From: Prevotella sp.
GTDB taxonomy: Bacteria; Bacteroidota; Bacteroidia; Bacteroidales; Bacteroidaceae
Length of the DNA stretch: 64,000 bases
Direction of reading: 5' to 3'
NCBI GenBank assembly: GCA_017428055.1
Contig: JAFRRN010000044.1
Location: 1-64,000 of the forward strand
The position numbers were made by a program, and so were the translations under genes. The notes beneath the pieces were generated by a model. It had not been told where the DNA came from and did not search any database. It saw nothing but the letters and a program-made list of their open reading frames with translations. Below are positions 8,728 to 58,478 of the stretch, piece after piece; position 1 is the first letter of the stretch; every line of letters begins with the position of its first letter.

Positions 8728-8819
8728 CTATTGTGGAATGAGGCCATCTTTTTTATTGTCTCCAGAAAAAAGTTGTGGAAAAGAGCAGTCTTTACACAAC
8801 CTTTTGACGCGCCGATACG

Positions 8820-8834
8820 TTTCTATAGTAGAAA
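8820..8834 (+). promoter_or_regulatory. Palindrome TTTCTA-tag-TAGAAA before sigma unit 2
   Basis: A 15-base dyad (arms TTTCTA and TAGAAA) 20 bases before the start of the sigma gene at 8855, in the place where an autoregulatory -10 or operator would sit. The TCTATAG core resembles the GTCTATAT and GTCTTATA elements of the other units. Confidence 0.35.
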
Positions 8835-8854
8835 GTAGCAACAAATAACGTCCG

Positions 8855-9340: not shown

Positions 9341-9344
9341 AGAT

Positions 9345-9710
9345 ATGAAAGACCAGGAAATACGAGACAAATTCCACGCCTATCGTCCGCAGATTGACGA
9401 TAACGAAGCGTTCATGGATAAACTCATGGCTCAGATGGATGCTATAGATGATAAGCGGCAGTATGCTCGCATCATTCCATTCTGTCGCAGGATTCTCCCT
9501 TGGGCGGCTGGCATATCGGCAGCGGTGGTAGCGGCGGTGTTCGTCATTAAGGAACCTGCAACGCCCTCGGTAGAAAGCAATTACGTGTCACCCCTGCCTG
9601 AATATCATTACAAGACTCCATCGCCAGCTGACTTCTCTTCCTACGAAGATATTGTCAACGAGATAGAGTGCAGCGGTCGGCAACTGGAGAATGCCATCGC
9701 CCAACTGTAA
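9345..9710 (+). CDS. Small single-span membrane protein, probable anti-sigma factor
   Basis: A 121-residue protein with a soluble N-terminus (residues 1-45, containing FHAYRPQIDDNEAFMDKLM), one membrane helix at about 50-68 (LPWAAGISAAVVAAVFVI) and a short periplasmic tail. There is no zinc finger. The layout (short acidic N-terminus with a conserved Phe/Met pair, then one helix) matches the proteins at 11539 and 27904, each directly after an ECF sigma gene, so an anti-sigma role is inferred from position. It starts 4 bases after the sigma gene. Confidence 0.7.
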   Translation: MKDQEIRDKFHAYRPQIDDNEAFMDKLMAQMDAIDDKRQYARIIPFCRRILPWAAGISAAVVAAVFVIKEPATPSVESNYVSPLPEYHYKTPSPADFSSYEDIVNEIECSGRQLENAIAQL

Positions 9711-9775
9711 TCAAAAATAGAAAAGACGTCTTGCTATCATAACAATCATTCATTCATCATCAAACGAATTAAACA

Positions 9776-10876
9776 ATGAAAAAAGCATTATTCCTTTTAA
9801 TAGCGAGCGCCCTGTTAGGCTCTTGCGCCTCAGAGCAGACAGGTTCGTCAGACCCCATTGAGAATCTGGTTTCCTATTTAGACAGTAAAGACTTCGACCA
9901 AACCCATAAGCGGACAAGATATGAGGGCGGCTCCATCCTGAAAACGAACACGGAGTATTATTGTATCGTTGCAACACCAGAGGCACTCAAGTCAAAGGAT
10001 TATCAGGACTTGCCCAAAGAGCGACTACAGGAACAAATGGAAAACATTGAGATTCAGGATTCCTGCCTCCGTGCCTTCCGCTGGGGATGCACCTTCGCCC
10101 GCCATTGCTATCACAAGGAGAGTCATGTGCTGGACAAAGACACCGTGGTCTATGCCTTGGCCCTCGACGGTATGGACGGAGAACGCATTGAGCTGCAAGG
10201 CGTGGGTAGCTACGAAGACTATTTCGTAGGCTTCAAGGCCGCCCGTGCTGCAACCTTGAAGGTGAAAGGCACCAAGCAATACTCCTTATGGCAGATGCAA
10301 TACATCACCCGCGAGGAGAAAGGCCGCGAGGAACCCTTCAACATGCGCCCGCTCAACGACTTCATCAAGCGGATGATGGAGAATGTGGACAGCGTGAAAG
10401 TGTATGAGACCTCCTACGAAATGACCCATGAGGACCTTGGCGGTAATCCCTCGATTGTCGGAGAAGTTGCGCCCGACGAGGAATACACGTGGAGCGGCAA
10501 GACAACGGGCCATCTCTACGTGGTACCCGAATCTGCTGCCAAAGATGTCGAAGAAGGATTACGATTCTGCGTGAACAACGACTATCTGGGCTTGAACCCC
10601 AATCAGAAATTCTTTATCACGATGGATGAGAAGGGACTTGTTATTGGCAGGAACGACCCCCATACCTTCAGCATCAACGAAACCGTCAAGCATCAGTCGT
10701 TGTACGCCGAGCGGTCTGTAGACGGTCACTTCTACATCCTTGTCCTCGACGAGACTACCGGTGCCTTCTGTCTCCCTCGCTGCTGGAAGCACATCATCCA
10801 AATCAAGGACCACAAGGAGATTCTCATCCCTGGCGGACACAAGCCCAACAAGGACGGATGGATAGATATAGACTGA
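9776..10876 (+). CDS. Lipoprotein of unknown function, sigma unit 2
   Basis: A 366-residue protein with a lipoprotein signal (MKKALFLLIASALLGSC, lipidated Cys17). I do not recognise the family. It has a cysteine-bearing middle (RAFRWGCTFARHC) and aligns by eye over its second half with the lipoprotein at 11924: KVYETSYEM versus KKYEVNYEW, TGHLYVV versus TGTHFFI, and LPRCWKHIIQIKDHKEILIP versus IPRLWLKVKQTHNLDIIP. It should be a membrane-anchored periplasmic partner or output of the sigma unit. Expression is likely tied to the sigma gene at 8855 (65-base gap, no terminator). Confidence 0.75.
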   Translation: MKKALFLLIASALLGSCASEQTGSSDPIENLVSYLDSKDFDQTHKRTRYEGGSILKTNTEYYCIVATPEALKSKDYQDLPKERLQEQMENIEIQDSCLRAFRWGCTFARHCYHKESHVLDKDTVVYALALDGMDGERIELQGVGSYEDYFVGFKAARAATLKVKGTKQYSLWQMQYITREEKGREEPFNMRPLNDFIKRMMENVDSVKVYETSYEMTHEDLGGNPSIVGEVAPDEEYTWSGKTTGHLYVVPESAAKDVEEGLRFCVNNDYLGLNPNQKFFITMDEKGLVIGRNDPHTFSINETVKHQSLYAERSVDGHFYILVLDETTGAFCLPRCWKHIIQIKDHKEILIPGGHKPNKDGWIDID

Positions 10877-10948
10877 CATTTTAGATCGAAACGAAATATG
10901 AACAAGCAAACTATCATCCCCAGAACAGAATAATCTAAAAAAATTACT

Positions 10949-10963
10949 TGTCACGGCGTGACA
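10949..10963 (+). promoter_or_regulatory. Perfect palindrome TGTCACG-G-CGTGACA (possible operator)
   Basis: Seven-base arms around one central G, 32 bases before the start of the sigma gene at 10995 and just before the T-rich/GTCTATATATA promoter-like stretch. The place and perfect symmetry fit a repressor or activator site. Confidence 0.4.
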
Positions 10964-10965
10964 TT

Positions 10966-10988
10966 TCGCCTTTTTTTGTCTATATATA
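10966..10988 (+). promoter_or_regulatory. Putative ECF sigma promoter, unit 3
   Basis: CGCCTTTTTTTGTCTATATATA has the same form as P1 and P2 (T-rich block directly before GTCTnTATnnA) and ends only 6 bases before ATG 10995, so the leader would be very short. Confidence 0.4.
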
Positions 10989-10994
10989 AGTAGA

Positions 10995-11546
10995 ATGGCG
11001 AACGAAGATAACATAATCATACAGCGCATACGCAGCGGTGAGACCAAAGAGTTCGGTCTGCTGGTAAATAGACACGGCCCTGCGCTTATGGCATTTGTGG
11101 GACGCATTGTCGAGCAGCAGGAGGATGCTGAGGATGTGGTGCAGAATGCCTTCGTTGCAGCCTACGAGCACCTGAAGGACTACGACCCGCAGCGGGCATC
11201 GCTATCTACATGGCTCCAACGGATTGCCTACCATGAAGCGTTGTACCATCTGCGAAAGCGAAAACGGCAGACGCTACTGCCGCTTGATGTGGGCGATGAC
11301 GTTCCGGACGAGTTGCCTGAGACGACAACAGCAGAACAACTGAACAAGGCCATCCAAAAGCTACCGCCCGAAGATCAGATGCTCTTGCAACTCTACTACT
11401 TCGATGAACGCCCTCTGAAGGAAATAGCCTACATCATAGGCACGGCGGGCAACTCTCTCAATCGTGAAGTATCGCGGCTCAGCAGCCAACTACACCGAAT
11501 ACGCCAACGACTCAAAATCATCTTAACACGCATGAACAATGAATAA
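10995..11546 (+). CDS. ECF RNA polymerase sigma factor, unit 3
   Basis: A 183-residue sigma factor. Region 2 is at about residues 18-90 (EQQEDAEDVVQNAFVAAYEHL in parts, then STWLQRIAYHEALYHLRKRK). Region 4 is at about 118-175 (LPPEDQMLLQLYYFDERPLKEIAYI in parts, then NSLNREVSRLSSQLHRIRQRL). The region 4 recognition helix is less typical than in units 1 and 2 (GTAGNSLNREVSR). Its stop overlaps the next gene by 8 bases, which couples their translation. Confidence 0.92.
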   Translation: MANEDNIIIQRIRSGETKEFGLLVNRHGPALMAFVGRIVEQQEDAEDVVQNAFVAAYEHLKDYDPQRASLSTWLQRIAYHEALYHLRKRKRQTLLPLDVGDDVPDELPETTTAEQLNKAIQKLPPEDQMLLQLYYFDERPLKEIAYIIGTAGNSLNREVSRLSSQLHRIRQRLKIILTRMNNE

Positions 11547-11916
11547 CGATAATGCACTTTTCCACCAGGTTCTGCAGCGACAGAACGAACGGGCCGCAAG
11601 GATGAAGATGCCCGACGATATGGAGCAACGGGTAATGGAGCGAATCAAGCCCAGGCACCACCGCGTCTGGCTCTACCCCGCTATCACTGCCGTTGCAGCC
11701 AGCATACTCCTGTTGTTGACGCTCCATACACAAGACCCTGAGTCATCAGGCCTACAGTCACAAGACACAAATCAGGCAGCAGAAATGCTCGTATGGCAAC
11801 ATGAAGACGAACAAACCATACGTGATATTTGTTTCGCTCACCAAAAGGAGATTCAAGAAAAGGGTGAGAGGCTTGCCGCCTACATCCAGCAACAAACAAC
11901 CATTAACATAGAATAA
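11539..11916 (+). CDS. Small single-span membrane protein, probable anti-sigma factor
   Basis: A 125-residue protein overlapping the sigma gene by 8 bases. The N-terminal 55 residues are soluble and charged (FHQVLQRQNERAARMKMPDDM, abbreviated), one membrane helix follows at about 58-75 (YPAITAVAASILLLLTL), and the 50-residue tail lies outside. It has the same architecture as the products at 9345 and 27904. Anti-sigma function is inferred from coupling to the sigma gene. No named domain was recognised. Confidence 0.68.
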   Translation: MNNDNALFHQVLQRQNERAARMKMPDDMEQRVMERIKPRHHRVWLYPAITAVAASILLLLTLHTQDPESSGLQSQDTNQAAEMLVWQHEDEQTIRDICFAHQKEIQEKGERLAAYIQQQTTINIE

Positions 11917-11923
11917 GAACAAA

Positions 11924-12967
11924 ATGAGAACAAGAAACATCGTATTGTCTGTTTTGGCAGGATTGAGCATTGTCTCTTGCACACAAAATGTAGCAGACAA
12001 AGCAATACAGATAGAGAGCGTAAGTGAACTTTTCGACAGTATTGCCAAGCGGGATATATATGGACGGCGCATATTGAGATGCTTGGAGGATTCCGTTTTG
12101 TGTGAGGAGTATAATATCTGTCATACGCTGAGCGATGCCACAGATAATGATACTGACAAAGAGTGGATGCGGAAAGAAAAAGAGGAACATAATTACTTGC
12201 TGCAGAATGTGCCGGTGCTGCTCGACAGGTTGTGTCGTACCGCAGAAAAGAGTTACCGATACATATCAGGCGACTCTATAGACTACAACATCACTCTACG
12301 AAATCGTCCCCAGAAACTCCTGTATTTAAAATGTTGGAAAGACAAAAGCAGAATCAACTGGTTCGACTTTTGCTATATGGCTGAGAAGCCTGCCAACATC
12401 ACGGTAAAGTCTGGCGATGTCACTTCAGTCCGAGAATTGCTTCAGGCATTCTTAGCTGAGCAGAAGGGAATCAAAAAATACGAGGTCAACTATGAGTGGG
12501 ATAAGGATGTGGCCATTCCTGATGACTATAACATATTCCTGCCAGTAAGCTATTGTGGGCATGGCGCCGATTCGCTGGCTGCCTCGTCTGTCACTGGAAC
12601 CCACTTCTTTATTCAGGCCAAGAATGAGCAGCGGATAGAGGTGGCTGTCGATTTCTACAACCGTTTGAACCGCATGGCCACCGAACAGCCTCGAAGAGGG
12701 ACTATTCTCACCACGTCTGCAAGATTCAAATCATATATGGAGAACGTGGAATGGTATGTGGACTTGCTGCGTTACACAGTCTATAACTATGAAACACGAC
12801 ATCGCGTCTACACTATCATGATGGAACAAAGCTCCGAAGGGATTCACCTCTTGGAACTCTACACTCCCGATGCACCTCGGTTTACGATACCCAGGCTTTG
12901 GCTGAAGGTCAAACAAACTCACAACCTTGACATCATCCCGGAAAAGGATTTTGAAAAGCTCTATTAA
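11924..12967 (+). CDS. Lipoprotein of unknown function, sigma unit 3
   Basis: A 347-residue protein with signal MRTRNIVLSVLAGLSIVSC (lipobox IVSC). Family not recognised. It appears to be a diverged paralog of the lipoprotein at 9776 (see that entry for the aligned segments). Both are third in a sigma / small membrane protein / lipoprotein cassette. It starts 7 bases after the gene before. The terminator at 13003 ends the unit. Confidence 0.75.
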   Translation: MRTRNIVLSVLAGLSIVSCTQNVADKAIQIESVSELFDSIAKRDIYGRRILRCLEDSVLCEEYNICHTLSDATDNDTDKEWMRKEKEEHNYLLQNVPVLLDRLCRTAEKSYRYISGDSIDYNITLRNRPQKLLYLKCWKDKSRINWFDFCYMAEKPANITVKSGDVTSVRELLQAFLAEQKGIKKYEVNYEWDKDVAIPDDYNIFLPVSYCGHGADSLAASSVTGTHFFIQAKNEQRIEVAVDFYNRLNRMATEQPRRGTILTTSARFKSYMENVEWYVDLLRYTVYNYETRHRVYTIMMEQSSEGIHLLELYTPDAPRFTIPRLWLKVKQTHNLDIIPEKDFEKLY

Positions 12968-13002
12968 ATGAAAGTAAATTTTTCTTATTTATCCCGGGAC
13001 AG

Positions 13003-13034
13003 GCATGGGTCGCAGCGATGCGCCCCATGCTTTT
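13003..13034 (+). terminator. Rho-independent terminator
   Basis: Stem GCATGGG (13003-13009) pairs with CCCATGC (13024-13030), followed by TTTT. It lies between unit 3 and the thioredoxin-fold gene. Confidence 0.65.
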
Positions 13035-13057
13035 ACCCGATTAATAAAAAAAGAACA

Positions 13058-14632
13058 ATGAACAAGAAAACCATCATCACCGCACTGCTCGCCGTTGTCG
13101 CAATGGCGGGCTTGGCACAGACAAACGAAATCTTCTTCCGCACGGACTCGGCAGTTATCATTGGAAAAATTGTGGGATTAGAGGCTGAGGCGATGCCCAA
13201 GCAGGTATCCGTGGAATGGAACAACGTCTTGACAAATATCCCGAAGGACAACATGGTCGATATAGCAGCGGATGGTAGTTTCACTTGTCGGATGCAGTTG
13301 CAGCACCCTGTTCTCAACACGCTGAAATTCTCGGAGAACGAGCGGGTACAGTATTATCTCGTGCCGGGTGAGACGCTGCAAATGGAACTGGCGCAAGATG
13401 CTGACGGGCATTGGAGTTGTGACTATTGTTCTGGGAGTTCGGCAAGACGAGTTGAGCGTCTGTTAAAAGAAAATCTTGATTTCACAAGCGAATACCGCAT
13501 GATGCTGGCAGACAAGAGCGATTTGAAACGCCATACTGCCATTTGCGACAGCCTCATTCGCGCAACCCTCGACAAAGTGAATGCCTTGGCTGATTCCAAA
13601 CAGTTCACCACCTACGAGCGGCAACTGGCTCAAACGATGGCAACAAGCATGATTTGCGCAGGCTTCTTTTTCAGGCATGGCTCATTAATGCGCGAAGACC
13701 TGATGCGTGCATTAAGCGACAGCACATTCAAGGCAGAATTATGTGCCCCCGAATACTATGCCCCGCTGAAATACTTACCTTTGAAGGACCCCATCCTCTT
13801 TGTCCCCTACTGCTATTCCCGATTAGTAGGGTGCCTATCCAAAACGCCCGTCTGTGCGTTGGCATCCTCTTTCTTGTATTATGCCCAAGAACAGCAGTTA
13901 CTGCGTCAGGCCATGAACCACATGACGGGCGACGAGGACAACCTACTGACACAGATGGCCATGATGCAAGACCTGCCGAGGGGACTCACTACTGCCAAAG
14001 AAGCATACGAGCACCGTTTGCAAGCATTGGCAGACACGACGCTGACAGCGGAAGACCGTGCAGAATGGGAAAAGGCATTCGTGCCGCTTGACACCGTTCG
14101 ACACCGTGCGCTCGACGGATTCACGCAGCCAGAACTACGCAAGGAGGCAGAACGTCTCTATGCCGTCACATTCGACGAATCTTTCACCTATCCCGTTCCA
14201 GAGGGCGACGGCAAGGCTTTGTTTGAAAGAATCATCAAGCCCTATCGTGGGAAGTTCGTGCTGATAGACTTCTGGGCGATGTGGTGCGGGCCTTGCAAGC
14301 AAGCCATCGAGAAAAGCCGCGACCTACGCCAAAGCCTGAAAGACAATCCTGACATCCAACTCATCTTCATCGCACAAGAGGACAATCCTGAGACAAACGA
14401 GACCTACAAGCAATACGTAGCGGAGAACCTGCTTGGTGCCGACTGCTATCCGGTCAGCAGAAAGGAATTGGACCAGCTGTCGGAACTTCTTCAGTTCGGA
14501 GGCATTCCCCATTACGTTACCGTCTCGCCCGACGGACAACTCCTGCGCAACTCGCTCAATTACTTTACCAACAACCATGAATTGTTCTTGCAGCGGTTAA
14601 ACGAAATGAAAGAAAGACTGTCAGGAATATAG
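13058..14632 (+). CDS. TlpA/ResA-like thiol-disulfide oxidoreductase, exported
   Basis: A 524-residue protein from ATG 13058 with a Sec signal peptide (MNKKTIITALLAVVAMAGLAQ). The frame from 12968 starts ahead of the terminator and is rejected. Residues about 25-380 form an N-terminal region with an early beta-rich part (like the DUF4369 region common in Bacteroidetes thioredoxin proteins) and a helical middle. The thioredoxin-like domain covers about 385-520, with the active site WCGPC (Cys410, Cys413) in FWAMWCGPCKQ and the cis-Pro region GGIPHYV. It should act in periplasmic disulfide reduction or exchange. Substrate unknown. Confidence 0.87.
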   Translation: MNKKTIITALLAVVAMAGLAQTNEIFFRTDSAVIIGKIVGLEAEAMPKQVSVEWNNVLTNIPKDNMVDIAADGSFTCRMQLQHPVLNTLKFSENERVQYYLVPGETLQMELAQDADGHWSCDYCSGSSARRVERLLKENLDFTSEYRMMLADKSDLKRHTAICDSLIRATLDKVNALADSKQFTTYERQLAQTMATSMICAGFFFRHGSLMREDLMRALSDSTFKAELCAPEYYAPLKYLPLKDPILFVPYCYSRLVGCLSKTPVCALASSFLYYAQEQQLLRQAMNHMTGDEDNLLTQMAMMQDLPRGLTTAKEAYEHRLQALADTTLTAEDRAEWEKAFVPLDTVRHRALDGFTQPELRKEAERLYAVTFDESFTYPVPEGDGKALFERIIKPYRGKFVLIDFWAMWCGPCKQAIEKSRDLRQSLKDNPDIQLIFIAQEDNPETNETYKQYVAENLLGADCYPVSRKELDQLSELLQFGGIPHYVTVSPDGQLLRNSLNYFTNNHELFLQRLNEMKERLSGI

Positions 14633-14690
14633 GTGGACAAAAGCATGTATTTTGGCATTTGCCCGCATTTTTTTGCAATGAGGGGTATTT

Positions 14691-14718
14691 GGTTTTGCCT
14701 TTCGAGGGTCTTATAGAC
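14691..14718 (+). promoter_or_regulatory. Putative ECF sigma promoter, unit 4
   Basis: GGTTTTGCCTTTCGAGGGTC followed by TTATAGAC. The GTCTTATAGAC core (14708-14718) parallels GTCTTTATGAC in P1 and P2 and sits 21 bases before the sigma start at 14739. Confidence 0.45.
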
Positions 14719-47295: not shown

Positions 47296-48183
47296 ATGAT
47301 GAAAATATCCAAGAATAGATACTTGCAAGGGTTTGCCATGACGGTGGTGGTATTGGCGATGATTCGTTGCATCTTTCCCTCCGTGGCAGAGCCAAGGGAT
47401 AGTTTGGTGGCACAGAATGACTCGGTTGTGTCGAAGGAAGCCGCTCCCCAAGAGGAAGAGAAAATTGAAAAAAAGAATGAGAAAGCTCCTGAAAAGGTGG
47501 TGGAAAAGAAGAAAGAGGAGGTTGAGACACCCCAACCGCAAAAGCCCACTCTCAACCCTGTTACAGCCATCCAGTCGCCAAGCCGTTTCTTTGGACCGGA
47601 TGGGAAACCCGTGAAGCATCGCATCTATAGTGTTCCTAACTACAGGGTGACATTCCCAGACTCGCAGTCGGTGCAGGAGGTGTCGGCGCATAAATGGGGT
47701 GTACGCCCCGTACAGAACCGCGCGGAGGCAGAGACTCGCAAGGCGGAGTTGGTGTATGTGGGCAGCAATCCTTATTTCCATGTGGACAAGTTGAGGCGCA
47801 GCATCCCGTATTTGGTGCCTCGTGCCTCCACGTTGCTGCAAGATATTGGCCGCAACTTCTTCGATAGCTTGCAGGTGAAGGGCGTGCCGCTCCATAAGAT
47901 CATCGTGACAAGCGTGCTCCGCAGCAAGGATGATGTGGCGAAATTGCAGAGATACAATGGCAATGCCACGGAGAACAGCTGCCACATGTATGGCACGACA
48001 TTCGACATCTGTTATAATCGGTACATGACCGTGGAAGACCCCGACGGACCCAAGCGCCGACAGGTGGGGAACGACTCGTTGAAATGGATTCTATCGGAAG
48101 TGCTTCGCGACCTGCGCGAAGACAAGCAATGCTGGGTGAAATACGAGGTGAAACAGGGCTGTTTCCACATCACCGTCAGGTAA
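47296..48183 (+). CDS. DUF5715 (M15-peptidase-like) protein
   Basis: A 295-residue protein (start at ATG 47296 or 47299). It has an N-terminal membrane anchor or signal (about residues 8-28), then a Glu/Lys-rich linker (EEEKIEKKNEKAPEKVVEKK), then a globular domain (about 95-295). The core has VTSVLRSKDDVAKLQRYNGN and the SCHMYGTTFDICY segment, where the His and Asp fit the SxHxxGxAxD zinc motif of M15 D-Ala-D-Ala peptidases. A cell-wall role is likely. A broken second copy of its C-terminus lies at 55733. Confidence 0.82.
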   Translation: MMKISKNRYLQGFAMTVVVLAMIRCIFPSVAEPRDSLVAQNDSVVSKEAAPQEEEKIEKKNEKAPEKVVEKKKEEVETPQPQKPTLNPVTAIQSPSRFFGPDGKPVKHRIYSVPNYRVTFPDSQSVQEVSAHKWGVRPVQNRAEAETRKAELVYVGSNPYFHVDKLRRSIPYLVPRASTLLQDIGRNFFDSLQVKGVPLHKIIVTSVLRSKDDVAKLQRYNGNATENSCHMYGTTFDICYNRYMTVEDPDGPKRRQVGNDSLKWILSEVLRDLREDKQCWVKYEVKQGCFHITVR

Positions 48184-49331: not shown

Positions 49332-50189
49332 ATGATGAAAAAATACCGAATGATTATCAAACGTGTTCAATTGATTATGTTTGGCACTATTTACGGCATA
49401 AAACATTATGTCGTAGTTCCGATTGTTGTGTTGTTATTAGGTTGTTCTGTACCAGTTTCAGCACAAGAGAATCCCTGGATTTTTGGTTTGTATACTCATG
49501 GCTATCATTTTTTGACTGGCAACGTGTTGGAACTCGCAAGACTGCTTGTCAATGTACCTGTATCAAAAGCTACAGATGGAATTGTGCCCATTGATATTGT
49601 TCCATTAAATCTCCATTATATGAGTTTCAAGGACAATGGGGAACATGTTGATTACAAAATGGGTAATCCATACGGCTTTACTTCATACGACTTGTTTAAT
49701 GATGTAGAGGCTGGATTGAAATTTGGTTGGCAAGGAGCAGAATCTCTTGTTGGTGCTTATATGTATGGTGCATATTGTATAAACCAACATAAAACAAGAT
49801 TTTTAGGTAATCTTGAATACGACAAACATAAAATCCAAAGTTGGAAGATTGGGCTTGGTGTTAGGATTTCGCCCCTTAGATTTCTAATGGACGATTATGA
49901 TTGGTGTCCTATTGTCGAATTGGGTACATCCTATGTACATAATTTTAAATACAAAGGACCGAATGGCAGCGACATTGACCAACTGAATAATGGGATGCGC
50001 ACAAATTATGCGATAGGTATATTATTTGATGAAGGTGAACAATCATTATTGTTGTGTATGGATATGGCACACTACAACCTCTTTAATAAGAATTATACAC
50101 CTGATGGCGGTTTTTGGTATCCATACGCCAACTTCAAAAACCAAGATTATTATTTCAGTTTAAGATATAGTTTTACATTAGATAATTAA
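49332..50189 (+). CDS. Island gene 1: exported beta-barrel-like protein, unknown function
   Basis: A 285-residue protein with a long N-terminal signal (hydrophobic VVVPIVVLLLGCSVPVSA; either a lipoprotein Cys in LLLGC or cleavage after VSA). The mature part is rich in aromatic, alternating strands (KFGWQGAESLVGAYMYGAYC, IGLGVRISPLRFLM, YYFSLRYSFTLDN at the end), which suggests a small outer-membrane barrel. Family not recognised. First gene of the AT-rich run. It has a second ATG at 49335. Codons are strongly A/T-ending, unlike neighbours outside the island. Confidence 0.7.
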   Translation: MMKKYRMIIKRVQLIMFGTIYGIKHYVVVPIVVLLLGCSVPVSAQENPWIFGLYTHGYHFLTGNVLELARLLVNVPVSKATDGIVPIDIVPLNLHYMSFKDNGEHVDYKMGNPYGFTSYDLFNDVEAGLKFGWQGAESLVGAYMYGAYCINQHKTRFLGNLEYDKHKIQSWKIGLGVRISPLRFLMDDYDWCPIVELGTSYVHNFKYKGPNGSDIDQLNNGMRTNYAIGILFDEGEQSLLLCMDMAHYNLFNKNYTPDGGFWYPYANFKNQDYYFSLRYSFTLDN

Positions 50190-50191
50190 CA

Positions 50192-50593
50192 ATGAGAGTT
50201 ATGAAGTGTTTTTTTTATTTTGTGTTTTCGCTTGTTGTTTGTGGAATGACATTTATAGGATGCAAAAAAGATGAGGTTAAATTTAGTCCTTCTGTTCCTT
50301 ATAGTTTAATAATCAATGATTCTATCTTCCATAATGGTGATTCATTGTTTGGGCGTGTTGTCATTAAAGAAAAAGAAATGGTAGCTGGTACAGATATAAA
50401 AAAAATTGATTGTAGATTGGGTAATATTGTCATAGGAACAACTAAAGGGAAAATGGAATGTCCCTTTGGTGTTAGGCTAAAAGACAAACCCATTGGAACT
50501 CACACTTTCTCTGTCATCATTAAGTGTGAAACTCCCGATTATGATGAAACATTCTGGAGATATGATAAAAAGATGATAGAAATCAAAAAGTAG
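50192..50593 (+). CDS. Island gene 2: small lipoprotein with Ig-like pattern
   Basis: A 133-residue protein starting 2 bases after gene 1. Lipoprotein signal with Cys in TFIGCKKDE. The mature 105 residues look like one beta-sandwich (SLFGRVVIKE, KIDCRLGNIVIGTT, IGTHTFSVIIKCETPDY). No family assigned. It is probably anchored at the outer membrane beside gene 1. Confidence 0.65.
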   Translation: MRVMKCFFYFVFSLVVCGMTFIGCKKDEVKFSPSVPYSLIINDSIFHNGDSLFGRVVIKEKEMVAGTDIKKIDCRLGNIVIGTTKGKMECPFGVRLKDKPIGTHTFSVIIKCETPDYDETFWRYDKKMIEIKK

Positions 50594-50620
50594 AATGGAA
50601 TAATAACTCATTAATAATTT

Positions 50621-51208
50621 ATGCTTATGCGACATTCAAGGTTTTTATTTTTGCTTATAGCTCAAATGCTATGGGTAAATTGTTTTGCAGCATGCGGTTC
50701 TGATACAAAGAGCAATGCAACCAAAACCAAGGCTGAACAGCCAGTATGTAACGAGTGGATTCATCCCGATGATGTGGCTTACCGTGCTTTAGGTCGGCAT
50801 TTGACAGATGTGCTGATTAATGCCAAAACGATTAAAGTTTATTCTCTTACGCCTAAAGAGCAATTAAATCCAGATGATTATGCAGTAGAAGCTCATTTTG
50901 TCCGTGATTCGTTTTTGGGTACTTTGTCAAAGGAACAGGCAATAGTGTTGGCTTACAATTTGATTTCTAATGGTGCGAATTATCAAAAAGATACCTCTCT
51001 AATCGTAATGTCACCTTATTATCCAATAATTGAATTTGAATTTACTAAGAAGAAAGAAGTTGCTCACATAATTGTTTCCTTAAGTAATTACACATGGGCA
51101 GTCAAATATGATGACAAAATTCAATTCAAATACAATTATGCAAGTGGGACTTTCATTAAAAGATTTTGTGATTATTTTCTTAACCAAACTCAAAACAAGA
51201 AAAAATGA
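50621..51208 (+). CDS. Island gene 3: lipoprotein of unknown function
   Basis: A 195-residue protein. Signal (RFLFLLIAQMLWVNCFAAC) with lipobox FAAC and Cys25. ATG 50627 is another possible start. The mature part has an alpha/beta pattern (DVLINAKTIKVYSLTP; AIVLAYNLISNGANY; IIEFEFTKKKEVAHIIVSLS) and no named family. It overlaps the caspase-like gene by 4 bases (ATGA), so the two are translationally coupled. A direct partnership is possible. Confidence 0.68.
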   Translation: MLMRHSRFLFLLIAQMLWVNCFAACGSDTKSNATKTKAEQPVCNEWIHPDDVAYRALGRHLTDVLINAKTIKVYSLTPKEQLNPDDYAVEAHFVRDSFLGTLSKEQAIVLAYNLISNGANYQKDTSLIVMSPYYPIIEFEFTKKKEVAHIIVSLSNYTWAVKYDDKIQFKYNYASGTFIKRFCDYFLNQTQNKKK

Positions 51209-52353
51209 AAAAAAATGGTTTTAATAAACTTGTTGGAGCAATATGTTTTTGCTTCATTTCTTTCACAGCTAATGCGCAGACACTACATACTATTGTGTTT
51301 TGTAACACGATAGATGGTGACATAGGAGAAAGCATGAAAGTTGAACTGATGAATGTAACTAATCAATTTAAGAAAATTAATGATCTCATAGAATATGATA
51401 TGGACTTCTATAAATTAGATGGACCTATATGCACAAGAGCAAACTTAAAACGTGCAATAGACCAGTTGGAAGTAGATGAAGATGATGTAATCTTAACATT
51501 CTATGGCGGTCATGGATCTCATGCCCCCAACGATTCAGACCCTTGGCCTCAGTATTGTATGAATACGGGGTTTGAAGACCAAAGCAACTGGGTTCGCATG
51601 GCTACAGTTGCAAAATGGGTTTGGGCGAAAAAGCCTCGGCTTGCCATTATTTTGTCAAACTGTTGTAATGTGATTCAAGGTGCAACTACAGTAAAGCCTC
51701 TTTGGGCTATGGGTGGTGACTACACCAGCTTGGATGGCATCTCTGCGGACAAATATAAAGAACTATTTAGTGCTAAAGGTTTAGTAATGGCAACTTCGAG
51801 TAAAGTACCTGAACCCTCATGGTGTAATAATGTGATTGGTGGTCTGTTCACAAGTGACCTTATAGATGCACTTCAGAATGTAGGTTCAGGTGAAGTTTCG
51901 CCTGATTGGAATTCAGTTCTCAAATGGACTTCAGACAGATGCTCTGAAAAAGACATTGTAGACCGTAATTACAAACATCATAGGCAACATCCACTATTCC
52001 GTATAACGGATGGTAAAGAATTCGGAGACAAGGGGAAAGACATAGATGGTGATGACGATGGAGGCGATGGAATAATAGACAATGATGCTCCCCTACAACA
52101 AGCCTTGAATGAGCTTGTAAACAAGAATATTAATCAAGATGTTCGTTTGGATATGCGACAAGTAATCCTTAATCGATATTTTAGTGGTATCAGCAAGGTT
52201 AGAACTGTTGGTACTGACATGAAAACAGTAGTTGAGTACGAAAATCCTGCGGATTTCTTGCGTCGCATCTGCTTGTCTCCATATATCAAGAAAGTAAATG
52301 TACTAAACAAAGATAAAGGCACATTGATTGTTCATGAGATTAGGACTCAATAA
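51205..52353 (+). CDS. Island gene 4: exported caspase-like (C14) peptidase
   Basis: A 382-residue protein with a Sec signal (MKKNGFNKLVGAICFCFISFTANAQ, abbreviated at residues 6-25). The caspase-like domain (about 26-260) has the catalytic His in LTFYGGHGSH (His103) and the catalytic Cys in IILSNCCNV (Cys153 or Cys154) after hydrophobic strands, as in C14 proteases. A linker at about 275-292 (DIDGDDDGGDGIIDND) is an acidic, Asp-rich repeat like the calcium-binding thrombospondin type 3 motif. The last 85 residues form a separate alpha/beta domain of unknown type. Bacterial caspase-like enzymes are usually cytoplasmic; export makes this one unusual. Substrate unknown, but Arg/Lys is common for the family. 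Confidence 0.82.
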   Translation: MKKNGFNKLVGAICFCFISFTANAQTLHTIVFCNTIDGDIGESMKVELMNVTNQFKKINDLIEYDMDFYKLDGPICTRANLKRAIDQLEVDEDDVILTFYGGHGSHAPNDSDPWPQYCMNTGFEDQSNWVRMATVAKWVWAKKPRLAIILSNCCNVIQGATTVKPLWAMGGDYTSLDGISADKYKELFSAKGLVMATSSKVPEPSWCNNVIGGLFTSDLIDALQNVGSGEVSPDWNSVLKWTSDRCSEKDIVDRNYKHHRQHPLFRITDGKEFGDKGKDIDGDDDGGDGIIDNDAPLQQALNELVNKNINQDVRLDMRQVILNRYFSGISKVRTVGTDMKTVVEYENPADFLRRICLSPYIKKVNVLNKDKGTLIVHEIRTQ

Positions 52354-52442
52354 ATGTTTTTATGTATAAACTAAAGTTTATTTTACATTCCGTAAAACTT
52401 GATGATATATAACAGATTCAATACAAATAATACATAGAAGAA

Positions 52443-53099
52443 ATGAAAAATTTAAAGTATTTTATTTCGTTGCTTGTTCTTTGCATCATAACAACAAATG
52501 TTCAAGCACAAAATGAGTCAGAATTGACAGAAAGTCAGAAGAGGGAATTCAGGCTACGTGTTAAGCAAAAGGTAGAAGAATTCCAAAACGGTCTCAAAAA
52601 AATCGTAAATAACGAGCTTTCTCGTAAAGCAAGGACGGAGCATGTTGCAAATACGCTTCAATTATTTATCGGTGAGGGTGAGAAGTATTCCTATTATGAT
52701 GAAGAATTAGACCGTCGAATAGAGAGCAATGGTGTAAAAATGCAAACTTCAAGTGTTAATCAGGAGAGAACGCAGAGTCAATTGTTGAAAAAATATATTT
52801 ACAAGTTGTACGATCCATCTACGGGTAAGTCGTCTTTACCCTATACAAAAATCCAAATAGACTCTGCAAGTGCAGTAAGGGTGGATAATATTTACAAAGT
52901 AGGTGATCATTATGAATGCGTTGCATATTTTGCGCAGAAGTTCATTGGCTATAGGGATGGGAAAGTATGGTACTCGGACAAGACGGGAAAGAAAATCCGA
53001 TGCTTTATTAGAAAAATCGATTTGCCAACAGGTGAGGCTCTGTTTGAAGCCAAATTAGGTGACATTTATGTGCTATATACTGAAAGATTATTCCGATGA
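52443..53099 (+). CDS. Island gene 5: exported protein of unknown function
   Basis: A 218-residue protein with a Sec signal (MKNLKYFISLLVLCIITTNVQAQ). A charged helical part (about 25-75, EFRLRVKQKVEEFQNGLKKI) leads to a beta-rich C-terminal half (IQIDSASAVRVDNIYKVGDH, ECVAYFAQKFIGYRDG). No domain recognised. There are 89 bases after gene 4, with a small hairpin (ATAAACT/AGTTTAT near 52374) and possible promoter. Its end overlaps gene 6 by 4 bases. Confidence 0.65.
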   Translation: MKNLKYFISLLVLCIITTNVQAQNESELTESQKREFRLRVKQKVEEFQNGLKKIVNNELSRKARTEHVANTLQLFIGEGEKYSYYDEELDRRIESNGVKMQTSSVNQERTQSQLLKKYIYKLYDPSTGKSSLPYTKIQIDSASAVRVDNIYKVGDHYECVAYFAQKFIGYRDGKVWYSDKTGKKIRCFIRKIDLPTGEALFEAKLGDIYVLYTERLFR

Positions 53100-53914
53100 A
53101 ATATTACTTATTCACATTTGCCCTTTTTGCTTGCTTCTTTCAAGCAAAAGGGCAAAACTATATTCCTGACATGACTACAGAAAGAGATTTTGCGGCACAG
53201 GTAAAGAGTATCGATGAATTTATCGCCCGTTTCAATGGTGATGAAAGTAAACCTGATTTGTCCTCTGATTCTTTACGAAGAGATAACATCATCAATCTTT
53301 TCGATTTCCAGATGTCTCACGGAGGATTGGATAAAGAGTCGTTTAAAAAACTAATCCAACACTTTACTGCTTCCGCATTGAATTGGAAAGGTAAACTCTC
53401 AATAACAGGAAAAGGAACCTATGCTGAGGCCAAATGCAAAGTAAAGTATAAAAAGAAAGATTATCATATAACTCTCATTATGAAGAGAGAAAAGACACAG
53501 AAAGGAGGGCAAAAATGGGCTATATATAGGGTTAAGGGACTTTCAACACTTGGCTTATATTCAGACAAAAGATTAACGATAAGCCCCGTTGACCATGAAA
53601 CTCATTTTATGAGTTTACAAGACTTTTTTCAAGTTAATAAGCAAATTGTACCTTCAATGAGGTCTAATGATGTGGAGATAGACGAACTATCGTTCTTTTT
53701 TGGTTTATGTGTAGCCAATGCGATTGAATTTGCTTTTGTCGACGAATTAAGATTTCACTTTACTGATATGCCAAACTATGCGTTTGTTGTAGAAGAAAAA
53801 GGACGACCTGGAACAAATAGTGGTTGGCTCATAACGAAAGTGAAACGAGTAGGTTCTGAATCAGAGAGAGAAATATATATTAACGAACTCATAGGAAAGG
53901 ATAAAACTAAATGA
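53096..53914 (+). CDS. Island gene 6: exported protein of unknown function
   Basis: A 272-residue protein with a short signal (MKYYLFTFALFACFFQAKGQ). The mature part has a helix-rich start (DFAAQVKSIDEFIARFNGDE) and beta-rich parts (KYKKKDYHITLIMKREK; KWAIYRVKGLSTLG). No family recognised. It overlaps both its neighbours by 4 bases, so genes 5, 6 and 7 are probably made together. Confidence 0.65.
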   Translation: MKYYLFTFALFACFFQAKGQNYIPDMTTERDFAAQVKSIDEFIARFNGDESKPDLSSDSLRRDNIINLFDFQMSHGGLDKESFKKLIQHFTASALNWKGKLSITGKGTYAEAKCKVKYKKKDYHITLIMKREKTQKGGQKWAIYRVKGLSTLGLYSDKRLTISPVDHETHFMSLQDFFQVNKQIVPSMRSNDVEIDELSFFFGLCVANAIEFAFVDELRFHFTDMPNYAFVVEEKGRPGTNSGWLITKVKRVGSESEREIYINELIGKDKTK

Positions 53915-54672
53915 AAAGAACATTTTTAATCATAATAGGTGTTATTACGTTGGTGTCACCTATACAATCACAAAACCTGTATTACAAATTTGAAGTTGGC
54001 ACCAATAATATCTATTCTTTTGCCATTGCCAATTTGGCTACTGGTTGGATGAATGCTTTGGCGGATAGGATGCTTTTTGATAATGCATATACATATACGT
54101 ATCTTCAAAGCGTAGATAATTCACAAGGACTTAAAACAAGGAATTATAATATAACAGGAATCACAGCTCGTGAATTTTTCAGTGATGTCACAACGGGAGG
54201 TAAAATTGGTTATCAGAGTTCCAATCCCGGAAACTTCAATTGGGGAGTGTTTGGGTCTGCGCATTATAGGATTAATCAATTTAAAACAATAACGAAAAGT
54301 TCAGACGATGAGTATCATAATGATATTCAACGATTATTGTTAGGTGGTGGACTATTATTATCATACGGTGATATCGAAAGTAGCACAAGATTCACATTTG
54401 AAGCGGGATTAAGATATGAGATGCCTATGTACTATAAGGGATTTCTCGGAAAGAAATCAGATGTATTGAATCAAGGTTTATCCAGTCATTTTGCCATTCG
54501 TATAAATGGTAACGGAGCGTTACAAGGTCTTGGGGTTTATGCAGATATTCCTCATTATAAATTATATAAAAAAGATGATAGCCAAGTAGTTGTTTCAAAC
54601 CTTAGAATGTACACATTTGGTATCATATACACTATAACGCCTTGGAAAATTATAAAAATATACAACCTATGA
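53911..54672 (+). CDS. Island gene 7: exported beta-barrel-like protein
   Basis: A 253-residue protein with a signal (MKRTFLIIIGVITLVSPIQSQ). The rest alternates polar and aromatic residues in strands (WGVFGSAHYRINQFKTIT; FTFEAGLRYEMPMYYKGF; LGVYADIPHYKLY; YTFGIIYTITPWK), as in an outer-membrane beta-barrel. It may be a counterpart of gene 1. The last strand is followed by only a few residues. It overlaps gene 8 by 4 bases. Confidence 0.65.
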   Translation: MKRTFLIIIGVITLVSPIQSQNLYYKFEVGTNNIYSFAIANLATGWMNALADRMLFDNAYTYTYLQSVDNSQGLKTRNYNITGITAREFFSDVTTGGKIGYQSSNPGNFNWGVFGSAHYRINQFKTITKSSDDEYHNDIQRLLLGGGLLLSYGDIESSTRFTFEAGLRYEMPMYYKGFLGKKSDVLNQGLSSHFAIRINGNGALQGLGVYADIPHYKLYKKDDSQVVVSNLRMYTFGIIYTITPWKIIKIYNL

Positions 54673-55517
54673 AAAAGCTATTAACATTATTATTGGTTTT
54701 TAGTGGCAATAGTCTATTTGCTGCTGTTCCTACACCAAAATCTGTATATTCTTTTTATGAGGGAATGCAGAAATTATCTCAAGCACGTAATGCAAATGAA
54801 GCAAATACAATAACTGAATCCATGAAAGATCTATTCTATGCCGTGCGGTATAGTGCTGGTTCTAAAAGTGGGGAATTGCAACCCAATGATTTTCGTTTTT
54901 TTGATTATGATAAAATTTATCCATCGCATGAGGATGATAAGATTACTACATCAATATACATTGACAGATTGTATAGTTACATATTTGAACAGAAGATAAT
55001 GTCTGTTGAATATCATGTAAGTAGTAGTGAGTCTTGTGGTGCCCGTGCAGAGGTTAGTAATAAAGGAAAAAAATATTCTCAAAATTCACTCATTGAAACA
55101 TACGTGGAGAAAACGTATGTTTTAAATCATGTTAGAAAAGTATTTCAAGATACAATAATTACTGATGTCGAAACAAATACTATCTGCAACTTTAAAAATG
55201 GATTTGGAAAAACATATTTCGATATTAAAGCTTTGAAGAGAGAAGCTGAAAGATATTATTATCAAAAACGTTATGTAGACGCATATAAATGCTATGAGAA
55301 AATATTGTCTATAAATGCCGATGATGGTGAAGCATTATATCAGATTGCCATTATGACATATTATAAAGAAGGATGCCACTTTTATTCCAAACGAACATAT
55401 CACAATAAAGGAAAGGAATACATGGAAAGAGCCAAAAGAAGTGATTCACATTATGGCGTTAATGAAAAAGCTCAGAATGTACTTTTTTGGTGGAGATATG
55501 GTGGAAGTATATCTTAA
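54669..55517 (+). CDS. Island gene 8: exported TPR-like protein
   Basis: A 282-residue protein from ATG 54669; the in-frame start at 54642 would lie inside gene 7 and put 9 residues before a clear signal (MKKLLTLLLVFSGNSLFA). The middle is of unknown fold. About residues 190-232 look like one or more tetratricopeptide repeats (AERYYYQKRYVDAYKCYEK; ALYQIAIMTYYKEG). It could scaffold the other exported parts. It shares the AT-rich codon style of the island. Confidence 0.68.
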   Translation: MKKLLTLLLVFSGNSLFAAVPTPKSVYSFYEGMQKLSQARNANEANTITESMKDLFYAVRYSAGSKSGELQPNDFRFFDYDKIYPSHEDDKITTSIYIDRLYSYIFEQKIMSVEYHVSSSESCGARAEVSNKGKKYSQNSLIETYVEKTYVLNHVRKVFQDTIITDVETNTICNFKNGFGKTYFDIKALKREAERYYYQKRYVDAYKCYEKILSINADDGEALYQIAIMTYYKEGCHFYSKRTYHNKGKEYMERAKRSDSHYGVNEKAQNVLFWWRYGGSIS

Positions 55518-55672
55518 CTGTAATCATAATGATTTGTTTATTTCTCACGATACTATTGTTTTGTGCTATAGGACAATCCGCTATGGCACAAGACATTGTG
55601 CAAACTTGTGGAGTTTGTAATGGAGTCGGCACACACGAATGTTCTTTCTCGTTACGTGGGTTCCGTTATTGA
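55487..55672 (+). pseudogene. Island gene 9: truncated exported protein with a CxxCxGxG start
   Basis: A 61-codon frame with a hydrophobic signal (MICLFLTILLFCAIGQSAMAQ from ATG 55529; the frame opens at 55487 inside gene 8). The mature part begins TCGVCNGVGTHEC, one DnaJ-type CxxCxGxG zinc repeat, then runs into unrelated sequence and stops. Full relatives would continue with more cysteine repeats, so I read it as cut at the island border. Confidence 0.5.
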
Positions 55673-55732: not shown

Positions 55733-55811
55733 ATGCTATTATCGGAATATGACGGTGGAGGTTCCCGATGGTTCCAAACGCCGACATGTGCAGAACGACA
55801 TGTTCAGGTAA
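55733..55811 (+). pseudogene. C-terminal fragment of a second DUF5715 gene
   Basis: Reading the frame ending at TGA/TAA 55809-55811, the peptide CYYRNMTVEVPDGSKRRHVQND matches CYNRYMTVEDPDGPKRRQVGND of the DUF5715 protein at 47296 at 16 of 22 positions. It then stops where the intact protein continues another 30 residues. There is no front half, so it is a remnant. Confidence 0.8.
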
Positions 55812-55829: not shown

Positions 55830-56282
55830 TCAGAAGATGAGGCTGACGCCGTACAGCAAAAGGATGTATCTGAGAACCTTTCCGATGGTGATGCTGAGGA
55901 TGGAGAGGGGTAGGTTGGCTCGCATGAGGCCGAGCATGATGGTAATGGCACTGCCCAAGATAGGGATGAAAGCAAAGAATCCCATCCATGCTCCATGCCC
56001 TGCCATGAACCGCTCCGCCTTGTCAAGGCTCTCTTGCGACACGTGTAGGTAGCGTTCTATCCATTCCATTTTTCCCATCCTACCTACACCATAGTTGAAC
56101 AATGCCCCTGCTACGTTGCCAATGGAACCATAGACAATCAAGCCTATAGGGTCGAGGCCGGCAGCTAACAGTCCCAACATGACCGCCTCGCTGCTGAAAG
56201 GAAAGAAGCTGCCCGCGAGGAATGCCGAGACCAACATCCCCCAATAACCATATTGTATCAGAATGTCATTGAGGGCATCCAT
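55830..56282 (-). CDS. YqaA/DedA-type SNARE-associated membrane protein
   Basis: A 150-residue protein from ATG 56282; an in-frame start at 56462 would add 60 His-rich residues read from another gene and is rejected. The pattern fits the YqaA branch of the DedA family: YGYWGMLVSAFLAGSFFPFS, GLIVYGSIGNVAGALFNYGVGR in parts, and FFAFIPILGSAITIMLGLMR, the conserved Gly/Pro loop. There are 4-5 membrane segments. It is likely a lipid or small-molecule transporter of the inner membrane. It overlaps the upstream gene by 25 bases. Confidence 0.85.
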   Translation of the reverse strand: MDALNDILIQYGYWGMLVSAFLAGSFFPFSSEAVMLGLLAAGLDPIGLIVYGSIGNVAGALFNYGVGRMGKMEWIERYLHVSQESLDKAERFMAGHGAWMGFFAFIPILGSAITIMLGLMRANLPLSILSITIGKVLRYILLLYGVSLIF

Positions 56283-57199
56283 ACGTTGAAGAATGTGATG
56301 GCGAGCGTGATGATGAGGATGACGTGAAATGAGAAGTTCGTGAACTTGGTGTGTGTCGTGGCGATGAAATGTCCGATGAGGGGTGCCGTGTTCACGATGA
56401 TGATGCCCAGTAGTACATGGTAATGTTGTGGGTAGAGGATGATGAAGATGATGGCACACCATCCCAAGGCTATGAACACATCATAGAGCATACGGGTACG
56501 TAGTTTGTCGTTGTATCGCTTGCGGAGGAAGTGGATGGTGCCGATGAGCAACAGGATGGCTATCCATGCGAAAGTGATGAGTTGGTGTTGTGACAGAATC
56601 TTGTAGTCAAACATGGACTCGACTGTTGCCAATTCCTTGAAGTGGGTCGATAGCCATCTGAAATTGTGGCTATACGCATCATATCCGGCAATGAACCAGT
56701 ATGGTGTGGCTATCCCAAGCAGGGAGGCGATGAACGTCTTTGCACTAAGGGATAAGATCTTGAAAGCCAGCAACACCCATAGGACAGGCAGGAAATACAA
56801 GATTTTGACAAATACCAAGCTTGCCAAGCCGATGGCGAAGAACGCATAATAAACCCACCCCGTGGCATTCTTGTTTTGGTATGCCTTGAACAGGGATAGG
56901 TAGAATGCGATAAAACACAGCACCACGATGGTGGACGGGATGGAGTGGAGTAGGAAAATCGACATCACGGAGAGGAAAAGAAACGAGCAGGAGACCATGC
57001 GGCTATAGATGCGAATGAGGGCATTGGCATTGTTCAACTCTGCCATCAACAGGGTGGAGACTGCAAATCCCGTGAATGTCATCCATAAACCTTGTCCCCA
57101 AACACCGTATGCCATACTCACCAACACGCCATAAATGGCGGCGAGAGGTAGTGCCAAACGGCTCTCAGCAGTTCTGTTTTGCGACCTCTTATGTGACAT
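56258..57199 (-). CDS. Multi-span membrane protein of unknown function
   Basis: A 313-residue protein with about 8-9 membrane segments (for example PLAAIYGVLVSMAYGVWG, FLSVMSIFLLHSIPSTIVVL in parts and LLLIGTIHFLRKR). Conserved features include Tyr/Trp-rich loops (WFIAGYDAYSHNFRWL). I do not recognise the family. It lies between purD and the DedA gene on one transcript (10-base and 25-base overlap distances), so a core role is likely. Confidence 0.75.
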   Translation of the reverse strand: MSHKRSQNRTAESRLALPLAAIYGVLVSMAYGVWGQGLWMTFTGFAVSTLLMAELNNANALIRIYSRMVSCSFLFLSVMSIFLLHSIPSTIVVLCFIAFYLSLFKAYQNKNATGWVYYAFFAIGLASLVFVKILYFLPVLWVLLAFKILSLSAKTFIASLLGIATPYWFIAGYDAYSHNFRWLSTHFKELATVESMFDYKILSQHQLITFAWIAILLLIGTIHFLRKRYNDKLRTRMLYDVFIALGWCAIIFIILYPQHYHVLLGIIIVNTAPLIGHFIATTHTKFTNFSFHVILIITLAITFFNVWMPSMTF

Positions 57200-57209
57200 T
57201 TATATCCTG

Positions 57210-58478
57210 TTATAGGTCACTACCGATGTCGGAACGGAAATATTTGTCGGTGAATTGAATTTTCTGTGCCTCATGGAAGCATTTTGCCAAAGCCTCCTCC
57301 TTGTCCTTACCATAACAACTGACAGCAATCACCCGCCCGCCATTGGTCACGACCTGACCGTCTTTCATCGTCGTGCCACTATGGAAAACGACGCAATCGG
57401 TCACTTCATCCAGTCCAGTGATGGGATAGCCTTTCTTGTAAGCCTGTGGATAACCGCCACTGACAAGCATCACACAGACAGCGGCACGGTCATCGAAAGT
57501 TACTTCATACTGGTCTAACGTGCCATTGGCAACGCCTTGGAAAAGGTCAACGATGTCAGTCTTCAATCGCAACATCACGCTTTCCGTCTCGGGGTCGCCC
57601 ATGCGACAGTTGTATTCGATGACCATGGGATTGCCTTCCACATTGATTAACCCGAAGAAGATAAAACCCTTATAGTCGATGCCTTCCTCTGCCAATCCAT
57701 TGACAGTGGGGCGAATGATGCGGTCTTCGACCTTTTGCATCCAATCTTTGTCGGCAAAAGGAACGGGCGTGACACTGCCCATGCCCCCCGTGTTGAGTCC
57801 TGTATCATGCTCGCCGATGCGCTTATAGTCTTTTGCCTCAGGTAGGATTTTGTAATTCTTGCCATCGGTGAGGACAAAGACGGAACACTCAATACCACTC
57901 AAGAACTCCTCGATGACGACTTGAGCGGAGGCTTCTCCGAACATGCCGCCCAACATCTCGCACAGTTCTTTCTTCGCCTCTTCCAAGGTGGGAAGGATGA
58001 GTACACCCTTGCCAGCGCAGAGGCCGTCGGCTTTGAGAACGTAAGGCGGTTTCAGGGTTTCCAAGAAAGCCAGTCCTTCTTCCAATGTCGTGCCATCGAA
58101 AGTGCGATGGGCTGCCGTGGGTATGCCGTGCCTGTTCATGAACGCCTTGGCGAAGTCCTTGCTTCCTTCCAACAAGGCACCACCCTTGGATGGACCGATG
58201 ACAGGGATGTGTGCTGTAGATGAGTCGTTCTTGAACTCGTCGTAGATACCTTTTACCAATGGGTCTTCAGGTCCGACCACCACCATGTCGATGTCCTTGT
58301 CTATGGCAAACCGCTTGATGGCATCGAAATCATCCGCCTTGATGGACACATTCTCGCCAACGAGCGATGTGCCGGCATTCCCTGGTGCGATATATAGTTT
58401 TCCTACTTGTTTGCTTTGGGCAATCTTCCATGCCAGGGCATGTTCCCTGCCGCCGCTTCCTAATAATAATATGTTCAT
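57210..58478 (-). CDS. purD: Phosphoribosylamine-glycine ligase
   Basis: A 422-residue cytoplasmic enzyme of purine synthesis (ATP-dependent joining of glycine to phosphoribosylamine). Full family length. Landmarks: [59 protein letters not shown], abbreviated, [14 protein letters not shown]. It begins 18 bases after dpp4 on the minus strand. Confidence 0.98.

Follow-up and report, generated by a model that had tools for sequence, protein, structure and literature searches.

CARD-NLR-like systems act in the cytoplasm, and to our knowledge the known bacterial caspase-linked immune systems sense and act inside the cell. Metacaspases (orthocaspases) carrying tetratricopeptide repeat (TPR) or Sel1 domains, and metacaspases located in operons, are reported in excerpts of PMC3501461. 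Exported caspase-like domains occur in polymorphic toxins of Bacteroidetes (excerpts of PMC3482391), while CARD-NLR-like systems such as LypABC, which has an ATPase, join proteases to recognition parts (excerpts of PMC13236601). A protease-dependent conflict protein of Bacteroidales is also described: BcpT, a plasmid toxin activated by proteolysis (excerpts of PMC9308784). Here we describe an island of exported genes around a caspase-like peptidase, at positions 49332-55672 of a 64,000-nucleotide stretch of Prevotella sp. DNA (contig JAFRRN010000044.1, hereafter the window). Together with its relatives, the island represents a real and apparently undescribed system: a mobile module encoding an exported caspase, distinguished by a shared domain and accompanied by a sister form built around a leucine-rich repeat (LRR) protein. 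The Creative Commons-licensed literature, at the level of titles and abstract beginnings among the matches listed, contained no description of such a module.

The island comprises eight intact genes (g1-g8) and one cut gene (g9), all on the + strand, as an earlier note made from the letters of the window had proposed (Table 1). ATGA-type overlaps were found at four of the eight neighbouring gene junctions (g3/g4, g5/g6, g6/g7 and g7/g8), which makes the 'mostly' of that note generous. Its observation that the DNA is richer in A+T than the surroundings was borne out: G+C is 0.349 in the island against 0.517 in flanking open reading frames (ORFs), and G+C at third codon positions is 0.21-0.38 in g1-g9, compared with a mean of 0.65 and a minimum of 0.49 in the other window ORFs that reach at least 150 amino acids (aa; n=40). 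The starts of all nine products are signal-peptide-like, in line with the signal peptide or lipobox previously assigned to each, according to a simple, author-made and lax rule (g8 scored from one codon after its start). Across ten islands, every one of the 68 island ORFs that reach at least 120 aa passed the same rule, compared with 41 of 121 ORFs from the flanks; the rule is lax, yet the contrast between island and flank is large. A chance grouping of exported genes is ruled out by these numbers and by the co-occurrence described below. Lipobox-like motifs were flagged in g1, g2 and g3 and are trusted in g2 and g3.

The C14 domain of g4 scored 33.7 bits against a Pfam cut-off of 21.4, and its best relatives by sequence in the PDB are metacaspases (E 1.9e-4). 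His103-Gly104 and Cys154 are present in all 15 aligned caspase rows with a catalytic domain; a sixteenth row (L058:10914-11708; L-numbers denote loci in relatives) has the C-terminal domain without a catalytic domain and was dropped from this count. The initial call of a caspase-like peptidase is thus upheld. The residue two before the catalytic Cys would be the position in loop L4 that contributes to P1 specificity. It is D in eight rows, N in two (the window and L019), M in three and S in two (n=15) and, because it varies, caspase substrate specificity may differ between modules. In clan CD, P1 specificity comes partly from this loop, as with Gln184 of caspase-7 and Asp462 of MALT1 (excerpts of PMC4357240).

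Apart from the C14 domain, scans of g1-g9 against Pfam, NCBIfam and PHROG and of g1-g8 with PADLOC gave nothing above cut-off; g1, g2, g3, g5, g6 and g7 have no Pfam or NCBIfam family above cut-off, and none of the nine proteins has a PHROG match at E ≤0.01. Along with the literature search, this agrees with the previous view that no named system has this gene set. One weak TPR match (E 9e-4, below the Pfam cut-off) leaves the TPR-like label of g8 standing in weakened form. Of the two proteins called barrel-like, g1 and g7 do form one family, and the barrel label is indirect: both would be barrel-like because one of 12 family members matches OMP_b-brl_2 (E 9.6e-6). For g5 and g6, only scattered weak matches appeared when all family members were scanned, and searches of PDB sequence profiles returned nothing useful for the fold. 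Homology between g5 and g6 was considered and is unsupported. The pattern of g5 may be reminiscent of NTF2-like proteins.

The likeness of g4 to metacaspases lies in a catalytic domain above the Pfam cut-off with His-Gly and Cys in place. In contrast to them, however, g4 is exported, carries a C-terminal domain without a Pfam name, has fixed partners (g5 and g6, usually also g3) and shows in the window Asn, not an acidic residue, two before the Cys. Unlike the polymorphic toxins, the island is a separate multi-gene module in which no toxin polypeptide, tip or immunity gene was recognised; no toxin family was above cut-off (Pfam and PHROG on g1-g9, PADLOC on g1-g8), a new toxin family being possible. 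With CARD-NLR-like systems the likeness is in logic only. The Pfam scan found no ATPase family, STAND included, in g1-g9, and all nine starts are signal-peptide-like, which by the heuristic rule would place the products outside the cytoplasm, unlike those of CARD-NLR or gasdermin systems; the shared domain of the island is not known as CARD-like. Neither a C25 domain nor a Por-type C-terminal sorting domain, as in gingipain-like proteases of type IX secretion, was detected (Pfam, E up to 1), and for BcpT no kinship with island genes is claimed.

Distribution was examined in a family sample of 399 genomes, the window's included (G-numbers denote its members). Matches to g5 at E ≤0.001 occur in 13 genomes, nine of them strong (E <1e-20), and g6 is present in exactly those nine. 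Three weak g5 matches (G241, G279 and G410; E 8e-5 to 3e-4) cover N-terminal parts alone and were left uncounted, and the 7-kb contig of G340 carries diverged copies of g5 and g6 and lacks a caspase. The caspase gene lies directly 5′ of g5 in eight of the nine genomes; in the ninth (L058), that place is taken by a gene for the caspase C-terminal domain without the catalytic part, with a caspase upstream in the same run. The full order g1-g8 is kept in L059 and, divided between two contigs, in L063 and L064. A search with the caspase protein alone gave hits in 12 of 149 relatives, many of them to caspases of other families, and a caspase pattern scan of genome contigs, covering close relatives only, found one locus, L019. 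In wider samples, g6 was present in 79 of 393 genomes of the order and in five of 247 genomes of the phylum, the window's included.

The related loci fall into two forms. The caspase form consists of a lipoprotein, the caspase, g5, g6 and one or more variable proteins, and the sister form of a lipoprotein (C4), g5, g6 and an LRR protein, with homologous g5 and g6 in the same order and no caspase gene. The LRR protein of L112, the one scanned, matches LRR_4 (E 1.6e-41), and 13 others cluster with it. Among 37 loci classified within about 1.5 kb either side, the caspase profile is matched in 13, two of which match the LRR-type N-domain as well; another 22 belong to the LRR type, and two are contig-end pieces. 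A match to the caspase profile may mean the C-terminal domain alone, as in L053. Three phylum-sample loci (L167-L169) are LRR-type quartets, their last protein assigned by N-domain and size.

Profile comparison linked components of both forms. Residues 292-382 at the C-terminus of g4 belong to a domain whose profile matched that of the C4 lipoprotein with a probability of 94.3% and that of g5 with 80.9%; the C4 lipoprotein matched g5 (85.5%), and g5 matched the N-terminus of the LRR protein (81.8%). Against these four profiles, 24 decoy families reached at most 0.7%. Decoys were clusters of at least two loci, minus two belonging to module families; two of the remaining ones are true relatives (other g3 proteins and other caspases), which leaves the four profiles unaffected. 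Single proteins bridge the families as well: in L027, two TPR/Sel1 proteins of the caspase's run carry the domain C-terminally (E 2.9e-19 and 8e-15), in L100 the caspase gene adjoins two proteins with the LRR-type N-domain (E 1.4e-16 and 1.5e-12), the C-terminal part of the caspase profile picks up the g5 of L170 (E 3.8e-7), and a single L171 protein is hit by the g5 and C4 profiles alike. These matches point to one exported domain, new here and without a Pfam name, common to the caspase C-terminus, the C4 lipoprotein, g5 and the LRR-protein N-terminus.

Among the partners encoded by caspase modules are an Ig-like protein, a protein with WG repeats, a fusion of Sel1 and barrel, and TPR/Sel1 proteins. 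TPR and C7 proteins have N-domains that are related to each other (profile probability 93.4%). The variable partner (g8, C7 or LRR protein) is the least conserved component in nine of ten compared locus pairs. In the unrooted g5+g6 tree, calculated without L062 (g6 start uncertain), L066 and L108, the 13 LRR rows form one clade with support 100/100 and the caspase rows make up the remainder, L003, L027 and L057 lying nearer the LRR rows; either form may be the older.

Several lines of evidence bear on mobility. Caspase modules lie below their flanking ORFs in G+C at all 16 loci compared, by a mean of 10.0 points and by more than 5 points in 12, whereas LRR-type modules lie a mean of 1.9 points below, all 17 within 5 points; the sister form matches the composition of its hosts. 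The difference between the two deficits (p 1.4e-5) is indicative, as the loci are related. This comparison excludes L003, L058, L063 and L066 (short or no flank) and counts L064, which is the end of a split module without the caspase, L099 and L100 as caspase loci. In the g5+g6 tree the window groups with L019, from another genus, and L095, from another family (each 100/99). A single clade of the five same-genus rows was rejected (approximately unbiased test, p-AU 1.6e-47), as was one of the ten family rows (4.7e-11), some branches being long. Identity between the window and L059 is 65% for g1 and 57% for g2, but 27-36% for g3-g8; compared with L019, whose contig starts at the caspase, it is 59-61% for g4-g7 and 40% for g8. 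Because g1-g2 and g3-g8 differ in their nearest relatives, the island is a mosaic whose parts have been exchanged. Finally, the purD-mem313-dedA flank is kept in 15 of 15 same-genus loci (the best 15 of 35 other genomes with a match), and in none of them was an island protein found in the 1.5 kb beyond mem313.

Import of the island is well supported, since its composition differs, its distribution is patchy, the tree conflicts with taxonomy and the purD flank is island-free elsewhere. The earlier note had seen an imported protein-processing system: the import stands, and processing may be one of several explanations. Its idea of a mobile system also survives, as homologues co-occur, the nine g5 genomes being the nine g6 genomes, and were not found at the same place in the 1.5 kb examined at each of the 15 purD flanks. 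An ordinary resident operon is ruled out by composition, by the g5+g6 tree and by the island-free purD flank. Neither an integrase nor the backbone of a plasmid or phage could be recognised in the island, and no vehicle for it was found; an insertion sequence transposase adjoins the L063 copy. Carriage as phage or plasmid cargo is unsupported, the caspase not being found in phages nor g6 in plasmids: the caspase and g6 patterns had no relative in viral contigs, and the plasmid search returned one distant caspase on a Bernardetia plasmid. Integration at a tRNA site was likewise rejected, the window's only tRNA lying at 32067; when 15 other loci were scanned, two contained tRNAs, and the closest of these is about 1.1 kb away from its module, that of L099.

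Our preferred reading, held tentatively and at rather less than an even chance, is that of a horizontally moving, modular envelope protease complex with a constant scaffold, a swappable recognition protein and a caspase output, perhaps serving conflict with phages or competitors. The sequences show the set of genes, N-termini of export type, the catalytic dyad, the shared domain, co-occurrence, mobility and the exchange of parts; from these we infer where the exported proteins reside, the formation of a complex, its sensing and activation, the target and the defensive role. In this model g3, g5 and g6 would form the constant scaffold across periplasm and outer membrane, with g3 as lipoprotein anchor. 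The caspase would dock via its C-terminal domain, related to that of g5, the sister lipoprotein and the LRR-protein N-terminus, and the g1/g7 barrels, where present, would attach the complex to the outer membrane. An incoming or abnormal protein or an envelope state would be sensed by the variable partner, which is g8 with its TPR-like repeat in the window, a Sel1/TPR, WG or Ig-like protein elsewhere and the LRR protein in the sister form. This partner would then switch on the caspase, leading to the cut of an envelope target; the most likely role would be to defend the cell against phages or bacterial rivals. Recognition and response are somewhat favoured over protein processing by the shared domain, by how fast the partner changes and by the exchange of parts.

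A number of observations weigh against this reading. Low conservation of the partner may be expected of a recognition part, but weak constraint would give it too; the ten locus pairs overlap, and in L060/L061 the partner is the most conserved component. Full-length alignments weaken the domain links (caspase against C4 lipoprotein 88.6%, against g5 54.4%), and profile comparison left g6, the barrels, the g8 N-terminus and the TPR and C7 N-domains unlinked to the shared domain. No gene run combining a caspase with demonstrated LRR repeats was found among the loci examined. PADLOC, applied to g1-g8 and not to defence genes in the surroundings, gave no defence-system marker match, its sole weak caspase match having E 0.0059. 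As to composition, the deficit stays under 5 points in four of the 16 caspase loci (L019, L027, L098 and L100), and a slight deficit is also seen in 15 of the 17 LRR-type loci.

The export-type start of every product, and the presence of one protease beside two barrel-like proteins and two lipoproteins, would also suit surface-protein maturation, along the lines of the earlier note. In such a system g4 would cleave one particular substrate, with g1, g7 and g8 as candidates, while an outer-membrane complex is assembled, without sensing or defence. Clan CD enzymes such as clostripain and gingipain do process surface proteins (excerpts of PMC3482391). However, protease, g5 and g6 are constant while the candidate substrates change, the g1/g7 family was not found in L060-L062 or L020 (other barrels could be present), and a housekeeping maturation system would rarely be so patchily spread, with its parts swapped; we consider maturation unlikely, although it deserves real attention. 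Peptide or protein scavenging by an exported protease and binding proteins on an outer-membrane platform would draw on the same association of protease, barrel-like proteins and lipoproteins. Since the Pfam scan recognised no SusC/SusD or transporter family in the island and the sister quartet has no caspase gene, we give it hardly any credence.

Another group of loci raises envelope stress or signalling, the exported module reporting to cytoplasmic FHA/PP2C/kinase proteins by Ser/Thr phosphorylation with the caspase as signalling protease. In L058, one run joins FHA, PP2C and kinase genes with a caspase, the caspase-C-terminal-domain protein, g5 and g6; L066 has a kinase and a PP2C beside a diverged g5-g6, L057 a PP2C upstream, and in L027 a CHASE2 protein lies between the TPR/Sel1 genes. 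Kinase or PP2C genes at three loci suggest that some module forms may communicate with the cytoplasm. As a general account this is quite improbable: among the chosen genes scanned, a kinase was recognised in two and PP2C in three module loci, and neither beside the window's module, where further neighbours were not scanned. A secreted protease weapon, antibacterial or host-directed and resembling a polymorphic toxin with a caspase domain, could be argued from the polymorphic toxins of Bacteroidetes, where an exported caspase can be the toxin domain or the release domain (excerpts of PMC3482391). In the modules, though, the caspase forms a protein of its own, accompanied by conserved partners, and no large modular toxin, C-terminal toxin tip or immunity gene was recognised; such a weapon seems very unlikely.

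A bolder form of the defensive envelope complex, which we find doubtful but worth stating, is an inflammasome-like extracytoplasmic system of Bacteroidota. Caspase, adaptors and exchangeable repeat receptors would assemble via one homotypic exported domain. The widespread LRR quartet would be the resident sensor, and the AT-rich caspase modules would be the mobile version, armed with the protease and shuffling its recognition and anchoring parts. A mobile caspase module with export-type starts throughout would place caspase immune logic in the envelope, the first point of contact for phages, competitors' toxins and host factors. The partner families have no Pfam name, and the sister form is spread over many related families; g5, g6 and the shared domain, g6 being as frequent in the order as given above, gain a testable context.

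Table 1. Features of the island and its right border in the window
Feature	Position	Strand	Remark
g1, exported barrel-like protein, same family as g7	49332-50189	+	65% identity to L059 g1
g2, small lipoprotein, no Pfam family above cut-off	50192-50593	+	57% identity to L059 g2
g3, lipoprotein directly 5′ of caspase, position kept in other loci	50621-51208	+	
g4, exported caspase-like peptidase (C14), His103/Cys154	51205-52353	+	PF00656 E 3.8e-8
g5, constant exported protein with shared domain, no Pfam family	52443-53099	+	
g6, constant exported partner, RFN and NSGWLI motifs, no Pfam family	53096-53914	+	
g7, exported barrel-like protein, paralogue of g1	53911-54672	+	
g8, exported, weak match to TPR, lowest conservation of all members when the window is compared	54669-55517	+	
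g9, cut gene, signal peptide then CxxCxGxG-like start, no family above cut-off	~55487-55672	+	
Scar, 71 nt resembling 3′ part of DUF5715 gene (48010-48080)	55734-55804	+	between g9 and dedA-like gene
Right flank: dedA-like gene, membrane gene (mem313), purD; conserved backbone block	55830-58478	-	

At the borders of the island, an intact DUF5715 gene lies on the left and a 71-nt remnant of a DUF5715 3′ region on the right. The local score of the remnant was 74, compared with a maximum of 29 in 300 shuffles, and it resembles a scar left by duplication or recombination.

Some further gene arrangements were seen in the relatives. L004-L010, mostly same-genus, encode other exported proteins with a caspase domain in the C-terminal half, in different neighbourhoods. 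A second protease occurs in the L064 module, where the genes after g8 encode a Sel1 protein and a papain-like protease that has DUF4384 (2420-4641). The L058 run (1842-14692), in one direction, contains genes for FHA, FHA with zinc ribbon, PP2C, Ser/Thr kinase, Sel1 and caspase proteins, as well as the caspase-C-terminal-domain protein, g5, g6 and a WG-repeat protein. Genes for AAA_14/DUF4143 ATPases, possibly common accessory genes, lie within about 3 kb of the islands in L020, L059 and L096. In L098, a BspA-type LRR protein gene (7487-10255; 922 aa, cut by the contig end) adjoins the caspase module.

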